Shown here: piece after piece, positions 2,931-38,180 of the stretch | How positions within the stretch are numbered: position 1 is the stretch's first letter | How the letters are laid out: each line of letters begins with the position of its first letter | NCBI GenBank assembly: GCA_019312835.1 | Contig: JAFDCJ010000245.1 | Span: 1-42,471, forward strand | Direction: 5' to 3' | Source of the DNA: Deltaproteobacteria bacterium | GTDB lineage: Bacteria > Desulfobacterota > Desulfobacteria > Desulfobacterales > JAFDCJ01 | Length of the DNA: 42,471 bases | Notes under the pieces: model-generated | Database searches by the model: none | What the model saw: only the letters and a program-made list of their open reading frames with translations | What the model was told of the DNA's origin: nothing | Made by a program: the position numbers and the translations under genes

Positions 2931-3107
2931 GTTTAGTATTTGGTGTTTTGTGTTCAGTGTTTGAAAAACTGCTCTCACAAGCTGTCCTGCTCAATACAAA
3001 ACACGAAACACCAAAAAACTAAAGCTCATGATGTTGTGTTTGGTATCAAAGCATGTTTTGGTATCCGCCGAGTGTTCTACTAAATACCAAACACAACATA
3101 CCAAACA

Positions 3108-14303: not shown

Positions 14304-14440
14304 TCCAGATGACAGAAGACAGAGGACAGAAAACAGAAGACAGAAGTAAAAGAATGTGGAAGTCGGAATGCGGAATGCGCAAAATGAAGTAGCTGAATGT
14401 CTGAATTTCATATTTCCGCATTCCGACTTCCGAATTTCAA
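14304..14440. repeat. Inverted-repeat element between aapM and aapP
   Basis: Begins 2-3 nt after the aapM stop with five imperfect copies of ACAGAAG/ACAGAGG (14310-14345), then the left arm GGAAGTCGGAATGCGGAATG (14358-14377). CCGCATTCCGACTTCC at 14416-14431 pairs perfectly with 14358-14373 (16 bp). The 20-bp left word also occurs at 5969-5988. The spacer continues with a small CCAGGC-tcc-GCCTGG hairpin near 14461-14475. The element probably forms a strong hairpin in the aap mRNA. Confidence 0.85.
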
Positions 14441-15294: not shown

Positions 15295-15748
15295 TTGTCA
15301 TGTGACGATATATCTAGAATATTCGCCTCTGCAGCGCTACAAATTATTAAGGTTTCAGGTGTCAGGTTTCAGGTGTCAGTCGATAGTAGGCCTTAAGGCG
15401 GAAACCGAACGCTGAAACACGATTTGCTCAAACCTCAGCATCATATTCAAAAGTTATTCTCCCCCCCTTTTGTTTAGACTGTTAACGTTGCGCTCATTTT
15501 TTTCTGAACATTCCTATACCTGACACCTGAAACCTGAAACCTAATTTCGCCTAGTTCCTACAACGAAACCCATTTCTTGGATCGTAGTCTATTGGAACCC
15601 TTTAGCCGCGTTGAATAGATCATTGCCAATTATTCCAACTGGTATATAATTATTTAAGTTTTACGGTTTTTTGACCGATATATAGCAGTATATCAATGGC
15701 CTACAGGTGCGATGCCCGGGATGTTGGTATAATGCTATCTTAGCGAGG
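15295..15748. repeat. Intergenic region with CCTGAAA/GTGTCAGG inverted repeat
   Basis: Left arm 15351-15379 consists of GGTTTCAGGTGTCA followed by GGTTTCAGGTGTCAG, two tandem copies; right arm 15518-15542 is the reverse complement (CCTGACACC, TGAAACCTGAAACC). The 140-nt loop carries no evident gene, and the remaining 200 bp before the RDD gene are AT-rich. The left arm starts 56 nt after the aapP stop. A further 300 bp hold nothing else I can name. Confidence 0.75.
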
Positions 15749-22813: not shown

Positions 22814-22957
22814 AATGCCTAAAGTGCCTAAAATGCCTAAAATTTAAAAAGGATCGGATCATTATTATGCAGGTTGCTCTGCAAATTCAGCTTCACCGCT
22901 CAAGAGTATTATAATACAAAAGACAGCATGCCTTCATTTTAGACATTTTAGGCATTA
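22814..22957. repeat. GCCTAAAAT inverted-repeat element between moxR and DUF58 genes
   Basis: Left arm 22815-22844 is three tandem copies of a 10-mer (ATGCCTAAAG, TGCCTAAA, ATGCCTAAAA); right arm 22934-22957 reads TCATTTTAGACATTTTAGGCATT, the reverse complement. It starts 6 nt after the MoxR stop and ends 71 nt before the DUF58 start. Same layout as the other elements but a different word. Confidence 0.85.
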
Positions 22958-24494: not shown

Positions 24495-25490
24495 ATGATT
24501 ATTGATTTACAAAAATTTATCAGTGACGAAAGACCTTACTGGAACGAACTTGAATCCGTGTTGGATCGGCTTGAAAAACGGCCTGAGTATAAGTTGAGCC
24601 TTTCCAGTCTGCAACGGTTTCACTACCTTTATCAACGCACATCGGGGGACCTGGCAAAAATAAAGACCTTTGCCTCGGAACCCAATACGCGGGCCTTTCT
24701 TGAATCACTGGTTGCCAGGGCCTTCGGCGAAATCCACGAGACCAGAAAGCGGCCCCATCGGTTTGCACCGCTGCAATGGTTTTTCACAACTTTTCCCCGG
24801 ACCTTTCGCAGGCATATTCGTGCCTTCTGGATCTGTCTGGCCGCCATGCTGGTGGGGGGCGCTTTCGGCGTATTCGTATTGCTGGTCGAGCCGGCCGCTA
24901 AAGATGTTCTGTTGCCATTTGGCCACTTGCACGGAGATCCTTCCGAGCGAGTTGCCCAGGAAGAAAATGCGACGGTAGATCGGCTTGCGGGTGCCAAATC
25001 GTCCTTTTCATCCAATCTGATGACGCATAACACAAAGGTTGCCATTTTCACCCTGGCGCTGGGATTGACCTGGGGCATTGGAACCCTGACCCTGCTATTT
25101 TATAACGGGGTTATCCTGGGAGCAGTGGCATTGGATTATGTTATGGCCGGCGAAACGACATTTTTGTTGGGCTGGCTCTTACCCCATGGCGCCATCGAAA
25201 TTCCCGCCATCATTCTGGCCGGGCAATCCGGGCTGGTCCTGGCCGGAGCGCTGATTGGCTGGGGCAAACCGCTTTCCTTGAGAATGAGGTTCAGGAAAAT
25301 CAGTGCTGATCTGGTAACGTTGATCTTCGGCGTTGCCGTGATGCTGATCTGGGCCGGTATAGTTGAAGCTTTTTTTTCCCAGTACCATGAACCCGTGCTC
25401 CCTTATGCGGTTAAAATCGGATTTGGCGTATTGGAGCTCGCTCTGCTGCTGTTGTTTCTCACCAGATCCGGGAGGCGGAAGGAAAAGTAG
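24495..25490 (+). CDS. SpoIIM-family membrane protein
   Basis: 331 residues of the stage II sporulation protein M family. In Bacillus SpoIIM supports engulfment; in non-sporulating Proteobacteria homologues stand with RDD and MoxR genes and have no known role. A soluble N-terminal helical region (1-95; FISDERPYWNELE, LQRFHYLYQRTSGDL) is followed by about five helices beginning IRAFWICLAAMLVGGAFGVF, with HNTKVAIFTLALGLTWGIGT and the family block LLPHGAIEIPAIILAGQSGL near residue 232. ATG 24495 has no ribosome-binding site and sits 12 nt from an inverted repeat; translation may be coupled to DUF58 or depend on that structure. Confidence 0.9.
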   Translation: MIIDLQKFISDERPYWNELESVLDRLEKRPEYKLSLSSLQRFHYLYQRTSGDLAKIKTFASEPNTRAFLESLVARAFGEIHETRKRPHRFAPLQWFFTTFPRTFRRHIRAFWICLAAMLVGGAFGVFVLLVEPAAKDVLLPFGHLHGDPSERVAQEENATVDRLAGAKSSFSSNLMTHNTKVAIFTLALGLTWGIGTLTLLFYNGVILGAVALDYVMAGETTFLLGWLLPHGAIEIPAIILAGQSGLVLAGALIGWGKPLSLRMRFRKISADLVTLIFGVAVMLIWAGIVEAFFSQYHEPVLPYAVKIGFGVLELALLLLFLTRSGRRKEK

Positions 25491-25588
25491 AGGTTCAGGG
25501 TTCAGGGTTGTTCTAAATTTCAGAATCGCCGAACCGCTGAAACCGCTGTAGGCGAATTAACCTTGAACCCTGAACGCAGAACCTGTAG
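25491..25588. repeat. GGTTCAGGG inverted-repeat element after SpoIIM gene
   Basis: Left arm begins immediately at the base after the stop codon: AGGTTCAGGGTTCAGGGTTG (25491-25510), tandem copies of GGTTCAG. The right arm CCTTGAACCCTGAACGCAGA then ACCTG (25561-25585) is complementary. The loop has a smaller imperfect stem (GAACCGCTGAAACCGC). Ends 67 nt before the RDD gene. Confidence 0.85.
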
Positions 25589-25655
25589 TTGATCAGGTTA
25601 CGTATGATTAAGGTAGACCGAATAAAAATATCCCTAAACGATCAACCCGGACGCC

Positions 25656-26480: not shown

Positions 26481-26553
26481 GTTGCGAGTTGCGGGTTGCG
26501 TGTTTCGCGGTGATTGTCTGTGGCTTCAGAACGCGCAACCCGTAACCCACAAC
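26481..26553. repeat. GTTGCGG inverted-repeat element upstream of der
   Basis: Left arm 26481-26506 is GTTGCGAGTTGCGGGTTGCG plus TGTTTC (three to four tandem GTTGCGG words); right arm 26529-26553 (GAACGCGCAACCCGTAACCC plus ACAAC) pairs at about 21 of 25 positions around a 22-nt loop. Lies 60 nt after the RDD stop and about 140 nt before der. Confidence 0.8.
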
Positions 26554-26694: not shown

Positions 26695-28035
26695 ATGAAA
26701 CCCATCGTTGCCATAGTCGGTCGACCCAATGTGGGCAAATCGACCCTATTCAACCGTGTTACCCGTACCAAAGATGCCCTGGTGGACGACTTTCCGGGTG
26801 TCACCCGGGACCGGCATTATGGGGATGCCACGTGGAATGACGTTGAATTTACCCTCGTGGACACCGGGGGATTCACCGAAGGGGGCGACTTCGCGGATGA
26901 AATCAGATATCAGGTGCACCAGGCCATTGGTGATGCCGATGTGATCCTGCTGTTGCTGGACGGCAAGGCGGGGATCTCGCCGTTTGACAGTGACATCCTG
27001 GGGTATTTGCGCAGTGTCGACAAGCCGGTTTTCTTTGCAGTCAACAAAATAGACGGTGCTGAGCAGGAAATAAATCTGGCCGATTTTTATCAGCTGGGGT
27101 TACAGACCCTTTACCCTTTATCGGCCGAGCACCGCTATGGTCTCTCCGACCTTATGGACGACATGGCCGCGGTCCTATCCCCTTTAGGCAAGCAACCTGC
27201 TGAAGATCTTGCCGACGAGATGATCCGCCTGGCGGTGGTGGGTCGGCCCAACGTAGGCAAATCTTCTTTGATTAACCGGATTCTGGGACAGGACCGACTG
27301 CTGGTCAGCGATATCCCCGGCACCACCCGGGATGCCATTGATTCCGTCTGCACATTTGAGGGCAAATCCTACCTGCTGGTTGATACCGCCGGCATACGTC
27401 GGAAAGGGAAGGTCACCCGCAAGCTGGAAAAGTTTTCCATCATCAAAGCCTTAAGGAGCCTGGAGCGCTGTGACGTGGCGCTTATTGTCATGGATGCCAG
27501 CGAGGGTATTACCGACCAGGATATCAGCATTGCCGGTTATGCTTACGACCGGGGCTGTGGTTGTATCATGCTGCTAAATAAGTGGGATCTGGTGGAAAAA
27601 GATGGCAAAACGGTCAAAACCTATTACAATCGGCTGCGGGATCAGGCTAAATTTCTCAACTTCGCACCTGCTATGACGATATCAGCCTTGACCGGACAAC
27701 GCGTTGCCAAAACATTTAAACTGGTTGACGAGGTCTACGATCAGTATGTCAAGCGAATCGCCACCGGGCAGCTGAATCGAATTATGGAAAAAGCCATCGA
27801 AAAGAATACCCCTTCGCTGCATCGAGGCCAACGGATCAAGTTCTATTATGCGGCCCAGATATCCACCCGGCCGCCAACCATCGTTTGTTTCGTGAACTAT
27901 CCGCAAGCGGTTCATTTTTCCTACAAAAGATATCTGCTCAACCAGTTGCGGGAAGAATGCGGCCTGGACAAGACACCGATCCGCATGATTTTCAGGCAGC
28001 GGGAAGGCCGGAGCGCCAGGCGGAACAAGAAATGA
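26695..28035 (+). CDS. der: Ribosome biogenesis GTPase Der (EngA)
   Basis: 446-aa essential double GTPase that helps mature the 50S subunit. Two G domains: G1 [11 protein letters not shown] near residue 8, G3 DTGG near 56, G4 NKID near 119; second set [11 protein letters not shown] near 184, DTAG near 231, NKWD near 298. The C-terminal KH-like domain ends with the family-typical [18 protein letters not shown]. Usual length (E. coli 490, most bacteria 440-450). ATG 26695 without a clear ribosome-binding site, after two palindromes. rarA follows in the same direction but only after a 276-bp hairpin-rich gap, so they may be separate transcripts. Confidence 0.97.
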
Positions 28036-28311
28036 ATAATTTGTCGCTACTGATAAGGTGGGGTGTATTTAATGGGATACTTCGAATTACGCCTGGCGTG
28101 AGCGCTTCGCTTGAGGATCTCCGCCTGCGGCGGATCGAGGACCGGCCATGCGGCCTCGAGGTTGGAGGCAGACAATTGTGACAGACAACCGGTCTTTGCC
28201 TCTATTTTAGAGCCCCGCGGGGGCGCTCCTCAAACCTAGCGCAGATACTGCGCGCAGTGATCCTAGAGTTCGTCGAAGACGAACGCTCTTTAAATTCCGA
28301 AGGAATTTAAC
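28036..28311. repeat. Array of short perfect hairpins in the rarA leader
   Basis: At least six small stem-loops in 276 bp: CTCCGCC-tgc-GGCGGATC (28119-28136), GGCC-atgc-GGCC (28144-28155), GCCCC-gcg-GGGGC (28212-28224), GCGCAG-ata-CTGCGC (28239-28253), GTTCGTC-gaa-GACGAAC (28268-28284) and TAAATTCC-gaa-GGAATTTA (28291-28309). The first recurs with one loop change at 38163-38180. The last covers the rarA ribosome-binding site. No gene is seen in the gap. Confidence 0.75.
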
Positions 28312-29688
28312 ATGGACATTTTCGACTATCATGCCCGGATAGCATCCGACGCTGCCCGGCCCCTGGCGGAACGAATGCGACCGAGGGATTTAGATGAGTT
28401 TGTCGGACAGCGGCATGTGGTGGCCGAGGGTGGTATTCTTCGCACTGCCATCGAGCAGGATCGAATTTTTTCCATGATATTTTGGGGACCCCCGGGTTGT
28501 GGCAAAACCACCCTTGCCAGGATAATGGCATCCGCTACCCGGTCGTTTTTTGTTCATTTTTCAGCCGTACTTTCCGGCGTGAAAGAAATCCGCGGGGTAA
28601 TTGCGGAGGCGCACAACCAGCAAAAGCTTTACCGCAAGCGGACGATTCTGTTCGTTGATGAAATCCATCGCTTCAACAAGTCCCAGCAGGACGCCTTCCT
28701 GCATCACGTGGAAAGCGGCCTGATTACGCTGATCGGTGCCACCACTGAAAACCCGTCCTTTGAAGTCATCTCACCGCTGCTGTCAAGATGCCGGGTAATA
28801 ACCTTGAAAATGCTCACGGCCGAAGATATTGCGGCGATTGTTGACCATGCAATCAAGGATTGCGAAAGGGGATTGGGCGACTTGCGCTTGGCGTTCGAAG
28901 AAGATGCCCTTTCCCATCTCATCCGTATCGCCGATGGTGATGCCCGGATGGCCTTAAACAGCCTGGAGGTTGTGGCCGCCCTATGCGAAAACAAAACAGG
29001 GCCTTCCGAAAAAGATCAGCAACGCGTCATATCGGTGGCGGACCTGGAGCGTGCCCTGGAGAAAAAGGCCCTGAGCTATGATAAATCCGGTGAAGAGCAC
29101 TACAATGTGATCTCGGCCTTTCACAAAAGCTTGCGGGGCAGTGATCCCGATGCCGCGCTCTACTGGCTGGAAAGGATGCTGGCAGCGGGGGAAGACCCCC
29201 TTTATATCGCTCGCCGCATGGTTCGATTTGCTTCTGAAGATATCGGCAACGCCGATCCCCCGGCATTGACACTGGCCATGAGCGCCATGCAGGCTTTTCA
29301 GTTTTTGGGACACCCCGAGGGAGAGCTGGCCCTTGCCCAGGCAGCTGTATATTTAGCAACGGCGCCCAAAAGCAACAGCATCTATTCTGCCTATGGCAAG
29401 GCGCAGGCCGCCGTGCGTAAGGCCGGATCACTGCCGGTGCCGCTTCACATCCGCAATGCACCGACCCGGCTGATGAAGGATCTGGGCTACGGGAAAAATT
29501 ACAAATATGCCCACAACTACAAAGATGCCTTCGTGGTACAGGACTACCTGCCGGAAGATCTAAAAGACCGTTTGTTCTACACACCGACTGCGCGCGGCTA
29601 TGAGAAGATTGTCAAACAGCGGCTGGACAAATGGAGAAGCCAAAAGAAGAGGTCTAAGCAAAATTCAAATGAAAATAAGCCACAATAG
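28312..29688 (+). CDS. rarA: Replication-associated recombination protein RarA (MgsA)
   Basis: 458-aa AAA+ ATPase related to clamp loaders and RuvB; acts at stalled replication forks on single-strand DNA ends with SSB. Walker A GPPGCGKTTLA near residue 58, Walker B LFVDEIHRFNKSQQDAFLHH near 106, sensor 1 GATTENPSFEV near 132, arginine-finger region PLLSRCRV near 147. The C-terminal tetramerisation domain has YNVISAFHKSLRGSDPDAAL and ARRMVRFASEDIGNADP, both hallmarks. Start ATG 28312 with AAGGA 7 nt upstream, but that site is inside a perfect 8-bp hairpin, so translation may be controlled. Confidence 0.97.
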   Translation: MDIFDYHARIASDAARPLAERMRPRDLDEFVGQRHVVAEGGILRTAIEQDRIFSMIFWGPPGCGKTTLARIMASATRSFFVHFSAVLSGVKEIRGVIAEAHNQQKLYRKRTILFVDEIHRFNKSQQDAFLHHVESGLITLIGATTENPSFEVISPLLSRCRVITLKMLTAEDIAAIVDHAIKDCERGLGDLRLAFEEDALSHLIRIADGDARMALNSLEVVAALCENKTGPSEKDQQRVISVADLERALEKKALSYDKSGEEHYNVISAFHKSLRGSDPDAALYWLERMLAAGEDPLYIARRMVRFASEDIGNADPPALTLAMSAMQAFQFLGHPEGELALAQAAVYLATAPKSNSIYSAYGKAQAAVRKAGSLPVPLHIRNAPTRLMKDLGYGKNYKYAHNYKDAFVVQDYLPEDLKDRLFYTPTARGYEKIVKQRLDKWRSQKKRSKQNSNENKPQ

Positions 29689-29689
29689 G

Positions 29690-29940
29690 GAATTGCGAAA
29701 CACGAAACAAACCTGGCAATATTTAAATTCCAAGCACCAGATAACAAATTTCAAATCCAAATGACCGAAATTCAAAATCACAAACACGTAATCTGCTGGT
29801 ATGGTGCCTAAGGTTTTCGCCGATGGCGGGCGGAAAGGTTCCTTACAACTGCTCAGGGCGATTGCCTGGGATGTCTCGGTCATTGGATATTGATATTTGT
29901 AATTTGTTTGTTTTTTGGTGCTTGTGATTTGGGATTTCAG
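29690..29940. repeat. TGGTGCTTG-family inverted-repeat element before thiolase
   Basis: Left arm 29724-29787 (TTCCAAGCACCAGATAACAA, ATCCAAATGACCGAAATTC) pairs with right arm 29878-29940 (GGTCATTGGATATTGATATT, TTTTTTGGTGCTTGTGATTT). The 90-nt loop has its own imperfect G+C-rich stem (TTTTCGCCGATGGCGGGCGG). Begins right after rarA and ends 4 nt before the -35 of the thiolase promoter. Closest in words to 8518-8735 and 40449-40580. Confidence 0.82.
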
Positions 29941-29944
29941 TTTG

Positions 29945-35866: not shown

Positions 35867-36907
35867 ATGGAACTAAACAATGATATAGATCCGAATGAAA
35901 TTAAGATTGGTGTCGTCGGCGCGGGAAGCTGGGGGACGGCACTGGCTAATTTAATGGCCTCGAAGGGCTTTGACATCGATTTATGGGTGTTTGAAAAGGA
36001 AGTCGTCAGCCAGATTCTCGAGTCCGGGGAAAATCAGTATTTCCTTCCGGGTGTTAAATTATCCGCCAACCTGAGACCCCACAATGATCTTGCCAAGGTC
36101 GTTTCCGGCAAGGATTTGCTGCTGGTGGTGGTTCCATCCCATGTCATGCGGGAGACCACCCTGATAATGGCGGACCATGTTTCTAAAAAAGCGATTGTTG
36201 CATCGGCTTCCAAAGGAATTGAAAATAAGACCCACCTCACCATGAACGGGGTCCTGCAAGAAACCCTGCCTCAGGTTCCATCCGAGCACTTCGCGGTGAT
36301 ATCAGGTCCGAGTTTTGCCAAAGAGGTTGCCCTAAATCTTCCAACGGTTGTGACGGTCGCCTCCAAAGATATGCAGATTGCCACCCTGGTGCAACAGGTG
36401 CTGGTGACGCCGTATTTCCGGGTTTATACCAGTGATGACGTCATCGGTGTCGAGCTGGGGGGATCTTTGAAAAACGTCATTGCATTAGCGGCCGGTGTGA
36501 TTGATGGGCTGCAGCTGGGATTGAACACCCGGGCGGCTTTGATCACCCGGGGGATGACCGAAATCAGGCGACTGGGGGTGCGGCTGGGGGCCAACCCGCG
36601 GACGTTTACCGGCCTGGCCGGGTATGGAGATTTGATCCTGACCTGTACGGGCGATCTGAGCCGCAATCACACGGTTGGCAAAAAAATAGGCGAGGGACAG
36701 AAGGTAGACGATATCCTGGGGGAAATGCGCATGGTGGCCGAAGGGGTCAAAACGGCCAAGTCCGTCTATAATCTATCGCGCAAGCTGGGCGTTGAAATGC
36801 CGATCTCCCACGAGATCTACCGTATTCTGTATGAAGATCTCGATCCCAAGGAGGCTGTGTATCGGTTGATGACGAGGGATCTCAAGCAGGAGCTTGACGA
36901 AATCTAG
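35867..36907 (+). CDS. gpsA: Glycerol-3-phosphate dehydrogenase [NAD(P)+]
   Basis: 346-aa enzyme reducing dihydroxyacetone phosphate to sn-glycerol-3-phosphate, the backbone of phospholipids. N-terminal Rossmann motif GVVGAGSWGTALANLMA near residue 16, the substrate region SASKGIENKT near 115, ISGPSFAKEVA near 146, and the catalytic Lys block GVELGGSLKNVIALAAGVID near 194, then NTRAALITRGMTEI. Length is normal. ATG 35867 has CGGGA 8 nt upstream; ATG 35858 three codons earlier is possible but has no spacing. The stop codon's last base is the first base of a 144-bp inverted-repeat element. Confidence 0.96.
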   Translation: MELNNDIDPNEIKIGVVGAGSWGTALANLMASKGFDIDLWVFEKEVVSQILESGENQYFLPGVKLSANLRPHNDLAKVVSGKDLLLVVVPSHVMRETTLIMADHVSKKAIVASASKGIENKTHLTMNGVLQETLPQVPSEHFAVISGPSFAKEVALNLPTVVTVASKDMQIATLVQQVLVTPYFRVYTSDDVIGVELGGSLKNVIALAAGVIDGLQLGLNTRAALITRGMTEIRRLGVRLGANPRTFTGLAGYGDLILTCTGDLSRNHTVGKKIGEGQKVDDILGEMRMVAEGVKTAKSVYNLSRKLGVEMPISHEIYRILYEDLDPKEAVYRLMTRDLKQELDEI

Positions 36908-37050
36908 AATTGGTTTCAGAATAACCATCTTTTGGCCGATGGCGGCGTTGCTCGCCGCAGAAAAATGCTCACGTACTTCGTGTACGCTCCGCTTTTTCTG
37001 CAACTCGCGCCTTGCCCTCGACCAAAACTTGGCAATTCTGAAACCAATTC
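36907..37050. mobile_element. REP/MITE-like element with perfect 16-bp terminal inverted repeats
   Basis: GAATTGGTTTCAGAAT (36907-36922) and its exact reverse complement (37035-37050) bound a 144-bp element. Inside, TTTTGG (36930-36935) pairs with CCAAAA (37022-37027), and GCAGAAAAA (36957-36965) with TTTTTCTGC (36993-37001), around a central CGTAC-ttcgt-GTACG. The whole folds as nested stems. It codes for nothing, so would need a trans-acting transposase; none is in the window. The first base overlaps the gpsA stop, which suggests precise insertion at the gene end or co-evolution with it. Confidence 0.75.
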
Positions 37051-37081
37051 AAGTTTATTTAATTTAAGGGGTGTCGCGGAA

Positions 37082-38162: not shown

Positions 38163-38180
38163 CTCCGCCAGCGGCGGATC
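38163..38180. repeat. Copy of the CTCCGCC-GGCGGATC hairpin
   Basis: CTCCGCC-agc-GGCGGATC is identical to 28119-28136 except for one loop base. It lies 14 nt before the VTT gene start. A small dispersed palindrome, perhaps a REP unit. Confidence 0.6.

Follow-up and report, generated by a model that had tools for sequence, protein, structure and literature searches.

Introduction

BOX elements of pneumococcus are intergenic and modular, contain a variable number of internal units and are predicted to form a single fold. The STRR sequences of cyanobacteria are short heptamer direct repeats. According to the available excerpts of the published reports, the TAACTGA sequences of Beggiatoaceae are also short heptamer direct repeats (PMC4679880), and REPs are defined as extragenic, short palindromic, multicopy sequences that are highly similar and share a common consensus (PMC12306157). 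In the excerpted text of a further study, REPs lie mostly between co-directional and convergent genes, and the REP superfamilies carry a terminal GTAG or CGTC tetranucleotide (PMC3733652). A survey of 40 genomes, likewise available in part, described families of stem-loop sequences that are intergenic and share a common predicted fold (PMC2267715).

In this study, we analysed a stretch of 42,471 nucleotides, hereafter the window, from contig JAFDCJ010000245.1 of a Deltaproteobacteria bacterium of the order Desulfobacterales (assembly GCA_019312835.1, hereafter the own genome). The gap between der and rarA in this window contains two separate things, namely a copy of a modular repeat at 28100–28288 and a hairpin at 28290–28310 that lies over the Shine–Dalgarno site of rarA. 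The interest lies in the repeat family rather than in the rarA copy.

Hairpins in the der–rarA gap

Perfect stems with loops of 3–5 nt were counted in the 276-bp gap (28036–28311) and compared with 2000 dinucleotide shuffles. Five hairpins had a stem of at least 5 bp (shuffled mean 0.76, maximum 4), four had a stem of at least 6 bp (shuffled mean 0.21, maximum 2), and two had a stem of at least 7 bp, a number that was equalled by 2 of the 2000 shuffles. With the two further 4-bp hairpins at 28101–28111 and 28144–28155, the gap contains seven. The array of six hairpins in the original prediction is therefore real as an excess, with four perfect hairpins of at least 6 bp against a shuffled mean of 0.21, whereas the number six depends on the threshold. 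Two hairpins do share identical GAA loops, but their stems measure 7 and 9 bp and not 7–8 bp as had been stated; the first hairpin does recur at 38163 with a single base changed, exactly as had been stated.

Ranked by hairpins of at least 6 bp per 100 nt, the gap was third among 184 sampled gaps of the own genome. Folding against shuffles gave z values of −3.6 for 28036–28330 and −4.5 for the gap itself. A consensus scan of 27600–28700 for intrinsic terminators (a GC-rich stem followed by a T run) returned none in the gap, and its sole site was at 27798–27816 on the minus strand, inside der. A riboswitch or another known RNA was rejected as a candidate, as the Rfam covariance models gave no match at the gathering score in the window; they also gave none at E ≤ 1 in six element loci. 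Long inverted repeats were observed elsewhere in the window, among them 2932–3015, 14353–14439, 15357–15542, 22814–22956, 25485–25590, 26481–26553, 29738–29941 and 36901–37056. Most of these have arms of degenerate tandem words of about 7–8 bases, with a different word in each.

Table 1. Features of the der–rarA region, with positions in the window
Feature	Position	Strand	Basis
der (EngA GTPase), upstream co-directional gene	26695..28035	+	Pfam MMR_HSR1 (2 stretches) and KH_dom-like of EngA
Modular inverted-repeat element, GAGCG to CGCTC, 189 bp	28100..28288	+	Linker and module anatomy, model R1, BLAST similarity to other copies; borders as we read them
Side hairpin AGCG-CTT-CGCT, recurrent module hairpin of the family	28101..28111	+	Sequence
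Left-arm linker TTGAGGATC	28111..28119	+	Sequence
Side hairpin TCCGCC-TGC-GGCGGA (6 bp, loop TGC)	28120..28134	+	Hairpin census; L001 and L002 have this palindrome between linkers, and it is also in L003
Left-arm linker TCGAGGACC	28135..28143	+	Sequence; R1 match
Side hairpin GGCC-ATGC-GGCC	28144..28155	+	Sequence; R1 match 28135–28161 (+)
Left-arm inner linker TCGAGGTTGGAGGC	28156..28169	+	Sequence; in the predicted fold its GGAGGC end is paired to the GCCTC of 28198
Central loop, 28 nt	28170..28197	+	Sequence
Right-arm inner linker GCCTCTATTTTAGAG	28198..28212	+	Sequence; contains competing 5-bp hairpin CTCTA-TTT-TAGAG
Side hairpin GCCCC-GCG-GGGGC (5 bp)	28212..28224	+	Hairpin census; R1 match 28206–28233 (−)
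Right-arm linker GCGCTCCTCAAACCTA	28223..28238	+	Sequence; opposite the left arm in inverted repeat I1 (28102–28125 / 28219–28242)
Side hairpin GCGCAG-ATA-CTGCGC (6 bp, loop ATA)	28239..28253	+	Hairpin census
Right-arm linker GCAGTGATCCTAGA	28254..28267	+	Sequence
Outermost right-arm hairpin GTTCGTC-GAA-GACGAAC (7 bp, loop GAA)	28268..28284	+	Hairpin census; weak module match 28262–28293 (−), E 0.03
Putative rarA initiation hairpin TTAAATTCC-GAA-GGAATTTAA (9 bp, loop GAA)	28290..28310	+	Hairpin census; congener loci
rarA (MgsA/RarA AAA+ ATPase), downstream co-directional gene	28312..29688	+	Pfam MgsA_C, AAA_assoc_2, AAA
Lone CTCCGCCAGCGGCGGA palindrome	38163..38178	+	Not a module; no such linkers around

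Anatomy of the element

Over the whole window, model R1 matched at no place other than the three listed in Table 1. The ideal fishbone fold of the element is our reading of its linkers, and the energy model returns it only partly: for the rarA copy, the fold of minimum energy shows some of the branching.

The 16-base palindrome at 28119 occurs at 21 places of the own genome with at most one mismatch, itself included. TCCGCC-N-GCGGCGGA was nevertheless rejected as the repeat unit, as many of these 21 places have different surroundings. On contigs C40, C205 and C243, copies of the palindrome stand in the same linker frame, with GAGGATC before and a TTGAGG-like word after, between other hairpins. 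The palindrome at 38163 was not found by the module model at E ≤ 0.1. It was also observed that five own copies of ATCCGCCTGCGGCGGA (L011, L015, L016, L017 and L021) follow, within about 30 bases, a palindrome built around GGAAGAAA or AGAAGAAA; these palindromes next to ATCCGCCTGCGGCGGA are perhaps a second repeat family.

Conserved linkers and variable stems

As read from several copies, a module consists of TTGAGGA-NC, a short palindrome whose loop measures about 3 nt, and TTGAGG, and the far arm of the element carries the linker complements as G-N-TCCTCAA. Among 65 distinct inserts between exact linkers, 39 were self-complementary from end to end (1000 shuffles: mean 1.68, maximum 6). At loci fetched before any pairing model was used, this held for 12 of 22 inserts (shuffled mean 0.93, maximum 4), which is the cleaner figure because many loci of the 65 inserts were found with the pairing model. 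In a looser insert set, 26 of 115 inserts had a stem of at least 4, against 6.9 after shuffling (maximum 15); this count and the 12 of 22 are the least biased. A loose linker expression, which took in many coding matches, gave such stems in 48 of 326 inserts against 22.9 shuffled. A strict gapped-pattern search for the element returned no match, the pattern being too strict.

Two alignments of the modules were examined, both of which favour pairing by construction. In A1 (27 chosen modules of 22–34 nt, picked partly for being palindromic), 92.7% of the cells were paired and 22 changes affected both sides. In A2 (119 model matches in 110 distinct rows, fitted to a model that rewards pairing), 95.2% of the cells were paired against 18–67% in sliding controls, and 100 cells were changed on both sides against 28.7 after shuffling. 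The loci of G086, G108 and G047 were found with the pairing model. One stem pair across the 110 distinct modules was CG in 40, GC in 39 and UA in 31. Even so, the stem of a module is close to free in sequence while its pairing is kept. The stem mismatches of 91 modules (14 of them with a mismatch) comprised 7 G-U and 3 A-C, which does not decide between RNA and DNA.

Two arm styles, which are often mixed, occur within this one family, namely tandem heptads (GAGGTT...AACCTC) and linker-plus-hairpin modules. Because copies of the same family mix the two, the array at rarA has something in common with the long degenerate arms found elsewhere, and the contrast that had been drawn between them holds only in part: copies with heptad arms lie elsewhere in this genome. 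A BLAST search with the C40 element gave at least 68 matches at E ≤ 10 in the own genome, with 40 of 61 candidates scored. Ten elements folded alone had z values from −2.1 to −7.2, the rarA copy being at −2.7, and two elements of the congener G001 reached only about −2. In one locus of another genome (L376, G313, around 1320–1640), a palindrome was observed inside the loop of another module, forming a hairpin within a hairpin.

Spread and turnover across genomes

Among the 116 genomes of the order, at least 13 had a match to the module model at E ≤ 0.001. At E ≤ 0.1 the model matched 22 of the 116, a figure that includes single weak matches and to which chance alone should contribute about a dozen genomes; at least 11 of the 116 had three or more matches at this threshold. 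In a sample of the phylum, which overlaps that of the order, matches were found in at least 9 of 297 genomes at E ≤ 0.001 and at least 12 at E ≤ 0.01. The E-values of the model are rough, and the per-genome counts are lower bounds, as no more than 65 or 25 candidates of each genome were scored. At E ≤ 0.1, there were at least 13 matches in the own genome and at least 5, 10, 10, 58 and 33 in G001, G047, G055, G086 and G108, respectively. Copy number varied within a single genus, from at least 4 in G022 to at least 58 in G086.

The full plan, with a left linker-hairpin arm, a central loop and a right arm in which complementary linkers stand with other hairpins, was recognised by eye in other families (L265, L342, L341 and L376). 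One-armed copies exist as well, for example L264. A one-armed module array was also observed on a contig of a viral collection (IMGVR_UViG_3300009431_001314, L383, 11450–11950).

Elements occupy the same intergenic place in the own genome and in G001 at two aligned gaps, whose neighbours, like those of the other gaps compared, were named from the sequence. In the rnc to radical-SAM gap, two of the side hairpins have close counterparts in the other genome and the rest are different, and in the gap between enoyl-CoA hydratase and CaiB-like genes (ech-caiB), the right arm is longer in the own genome than in G001. Related elements with matching flanking genes were also found in a thiolase-like gap (own, G001 and G004) and a hypF-like gap (own and G004). 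We propose that units are gained and lost in tandem. In the rarA gap of four congeners with a complete gap (L103, L104, L105 and L107), there was no module at E ≤ 0.1. Because of this absence, the rarA copy represents either a gain in the own genome or a loss in the others.

Placement relative to genes

The 27 own entries comprise 19 in called gaps, 7 beside which no neighbouring gene was called and 1 that falls under a called ORF, the gene calls being our own from codon usage. All 19 classifiable copies lay between co-directional genes and none between divergent genes, against a background of 121 co-directional gaps among 188 of at least 150 bp; three of the 19 were in called gaps of 794–2026 bp, in which a gene may have been missed. 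In relatives of the same genus (19 entries, 7 unclassifiable), 11 were co-directional and 1 was called convergent. This last one (L263) was counted as called and is probably co-directional by reading, and L202, L207 and L214 were excluded from the count because they are the same sites as L200, L206 and L203, respectively.

In G086 and G108, 37 of 44 elements could be placed, of which 21, 11 and 5 were in co-directional, convergent and divergent gaps, respectively, and the other gaps of at least 60 bp in the same loci numbered 23, 3 and 5 (n = 31). Divergent gaps are thus not avoided there (5 of 37 elements against 5 of 31 other gaps), and placement in this partial sample was not clearly different from background. 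The placement rule is therefore clear in the own genome only. Of five elements in G047, two were co-directional, one convergent and one divergent; the G055 sample had three co-directional and two convergent.

In every gap type, the intergenic regions of the own genome were on average more stably folded than their shuffles, and most of all in convergent gaps. For gaps of 80–450 bp (n = 184), the mean z was −2.29 in co-directional (126), −3.21 in convergent (28) and −2.09 in divergent gaps (30). That structure occurs only in co-directional gaps is consequently ruled out for gaps generally.

The putative initiation hairpin of rarA

A Shine–Dalgarno-like GAAGG (28299–28303) sits in the loop and 3′ arm of the hairpin at 28290–28310, whose 3′ end is one base before the start codon of rarA. 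At up to 3 mismatches this hairpin is single copy in the own genome, which rules it out as a dispersed repeat. Its stem is kept in two of the four same-genus loci with a complete gap, unchanged in G006 and, in G001, on a longer foot and with a single pair broken, and the hairpin is absent in G002 and G004. No compensatory change was found in this stem among the own genome, the identical G006 and G001.

At the position of its neighbour (28268–28284), G001 and G006 have a 7-bp hairpin of another sequence, there without linkers. Between GTTCGTC...GACGAAC in the own genome and GTTTGCC...GGCAAAC in the two congeners, two of the seven pairs differ on both sides and all pair, which is suggestive of compensatory change, the comparison being one of three sequences. 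Folded together, the two terminal hairpins had z values of −1.9, 0.0 and −2.5 in the own genome, G001 and G006, respectively, with a competing fold in the own genome and G001. In the lowest-energy fold of 28272–28325, GTCGAAGA was observed to pair with TTTTCGAC inside the coding start of rarA, in competition with the hairpin at 28268–28284.

A structured RNA leader, as the original prediction had suggested, is plausible for the hairpin over the Shine–Dalgarno site, which is kept in two of four congeners (in one with a broken pair). The proposed check by conservation and covariation of the stems was carried out: at 28268–28284 two of seven pairs are changed on both sides with pairing retained, and the modules of the wider family covary in alignments that favour pairing. 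The remainder of the array is missing from this gap in the four congeners. In a more distant rarA locus (L025), the der–rarA gap contains a tandem pair of hairpins ahead of rarA that have GAA loops and a different sequence, perhaps an independent origin of the same architecture. Whether hairpins directly precede start codons throughout the genome was also scanned; the 43 hits (22 and 21) were not taken as support for such a rule, and nothing was concluded from them.

Possible origin and function

We speculate that the gap holds two independent structures, a dispersed fishbone repeat acting as an intercistronic RNA and the initiation hairpin of rarA, and we give this reading nearly an even chance. 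It starts from what the computation shows, namely the anatomy of the element, its dispersal, the self-complementarity of the changing stems, the copies at the same site in a sister species for some elements, and the retention of the initiation hairpin in two congeners. The conserved linkers of the two arms would pair with each other across the central loop, and a small perfect hairpin would protrude as a side branch at each linker junction, so that the fold would be branched like a fishbone. Conservation would extend to the linkers and to the ability of every side hairpin to pair with itself, and not to the hairpin sequence. The element is probably transcribed with der and rarA. Its RNA, in the manner of REP or BIME, may protect the 3′ end of the upstream message, attenuate read-through or set the two cistrons apart. 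The hairpin at 28290–28310, which places the Shine–Dalgarno site in its loop and 3′ arm, probably tunes the access of ribosomes to rarA.

The stems could stay perfect while their sequences change if template switching during replication copied one hairpin arm from the other. According to the available text of one study, both perfect hairpins and compensatory changes of several bases can reportedly arise by template switching in one event (PMC8794818). Because stems would be made or mended in a single event, free sequence combined with perfect pairing is explained under a functional as well as a neutral reading. As a mutational product with no function, such arrays might be built and homogenised from a seed palindrome by replication slippage together with template switching, which we consider less likely than not. 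Whole modules differ at orthologous sites, as in the longer own right arm at one gap, copy number varies widely within one genus, and the placement of copies in G086 and G108 resembles the background, all of which would suit a neutral product. However, purely local slippage does not predict the same linker words in several families of the phylum, and the persistence of some elements at the same place in a sister species and the co-directional placement of all 19 classifiable own copies also argue against it.

Hairpins are typical substrates of Y1 transposases, and the dispersal of the copies would be expected if a Y1 transposase acting on single-stranded hairpins had spread a palindromic element of the REP/RAYT or MITE kind. 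Y1_Tnp genes were indeed found in 7 of 8 genomes searched. However, the module model gave no match at E ≤ 0.05 in eight loci around such genes (three in the own genome, three in G001 and one each in G086 and G047), one such gene on contig C364 lying about 10 kb from modules. G108 has at least 33 modules and no Y1_Tnp match in an assembly that is 70% complete, whereas G055 has 32 Y1_Tnp matches and at least 10 modules. We therefore believe that such mobilisation is improbable. We also think it unlikely that the element acts as DNA, in the form of a cruciform or a site for gyrase or an architectural protein. The nearly symmetric inverted repeat would give the same structure on both strands, copies exist in convergent and divergent gaps of G086 and G108, and the 7 G-U to 3 A-C mismatches are not decisive; against this, none of the 19 classifiable own copies lies between divergent genes.

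Beyond the reading of the gap as a fishbone repeat plus an initiation hairpin, we tentatively suggest, at somewhat less than an even chance, that there is a class of fishbone elements over several families of the phylum, with fixed linkers of 7–9 nt, any perfect palindrome as a branch, selection on shape, and template switching as the supplier of branches. If true, this class would be a natural experiment in which the shape of RNA (or single-strand DNA) evolves apart from sequence. If the modules are functional, such repeats are defined by linkers and shape and not by a palindrome consensus, and word-based finders or single-consensus models could break them up or overlook them. The many independent palindrome replacements in the family would make a stepwise origin of compensatory stems directly testable against template switching, and the modules may account for part of the structured intergenic space in these genomes.

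Comparison with known repeats

No description of the element was found in the open PMC literature, to which the search was confined and which yielded general work on repeats, palindromes or template switching, and six unit sequences were likewise without a match there. The stem-loop survey resembles this study in dealing with families of intergenic repeats that share a predicted fold, and its available text contains no mention of Geobacter, Myxococcus, delta or Desulfo, so that the present lineage was apparently not part of it (PMC2267715). Like TAACTGA and STRR, some copies of the present family have intergenic heptad words in their arms; however, those repeats are described as direct, and the present arms are inverted and carry side hairpins. 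The element shares with BOX a modular, intergenic build, a variable number of units and a predicted fold as one structure. By description, BOX has fixed module sequences, whereas the side hairpins of the present element are freely replaced.

A likeness to REP and BIME was also weighed, the array having been taken for a possible composite of REP units. The element is indeed of the dispersed, composite, palindromic and extragenic kind: the 19 own entries in called gaps are extragenic, the units are short and palindromic, and there are several copies per genome. The co-directional and convergent placement given for REPs in the excerpts of the cited study (PMC3733652) matches that of the own copies. 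It is not built of REPs, however, for its palindromes share no sequence and its linkers do, and no module lay at the eight Y1 loci. There is no common palindrome consensus among the stems, which vary across 110 modules and include 39 distinct self-complementary inserts, and alignment A1, inspected by eye without a count against background, shows no constant GTAG or CGTC end tag. In BIMEs, alternating REP units are joined by linkers, and here inverted modules are joined by linkers, but the units are not REPs. The conserved part of a REP is the palindrome, whereas in the present element conservation lies in the linkers and the palindromes are variable. By this analogy, the element may work like a REP or BIME, but it is not one.
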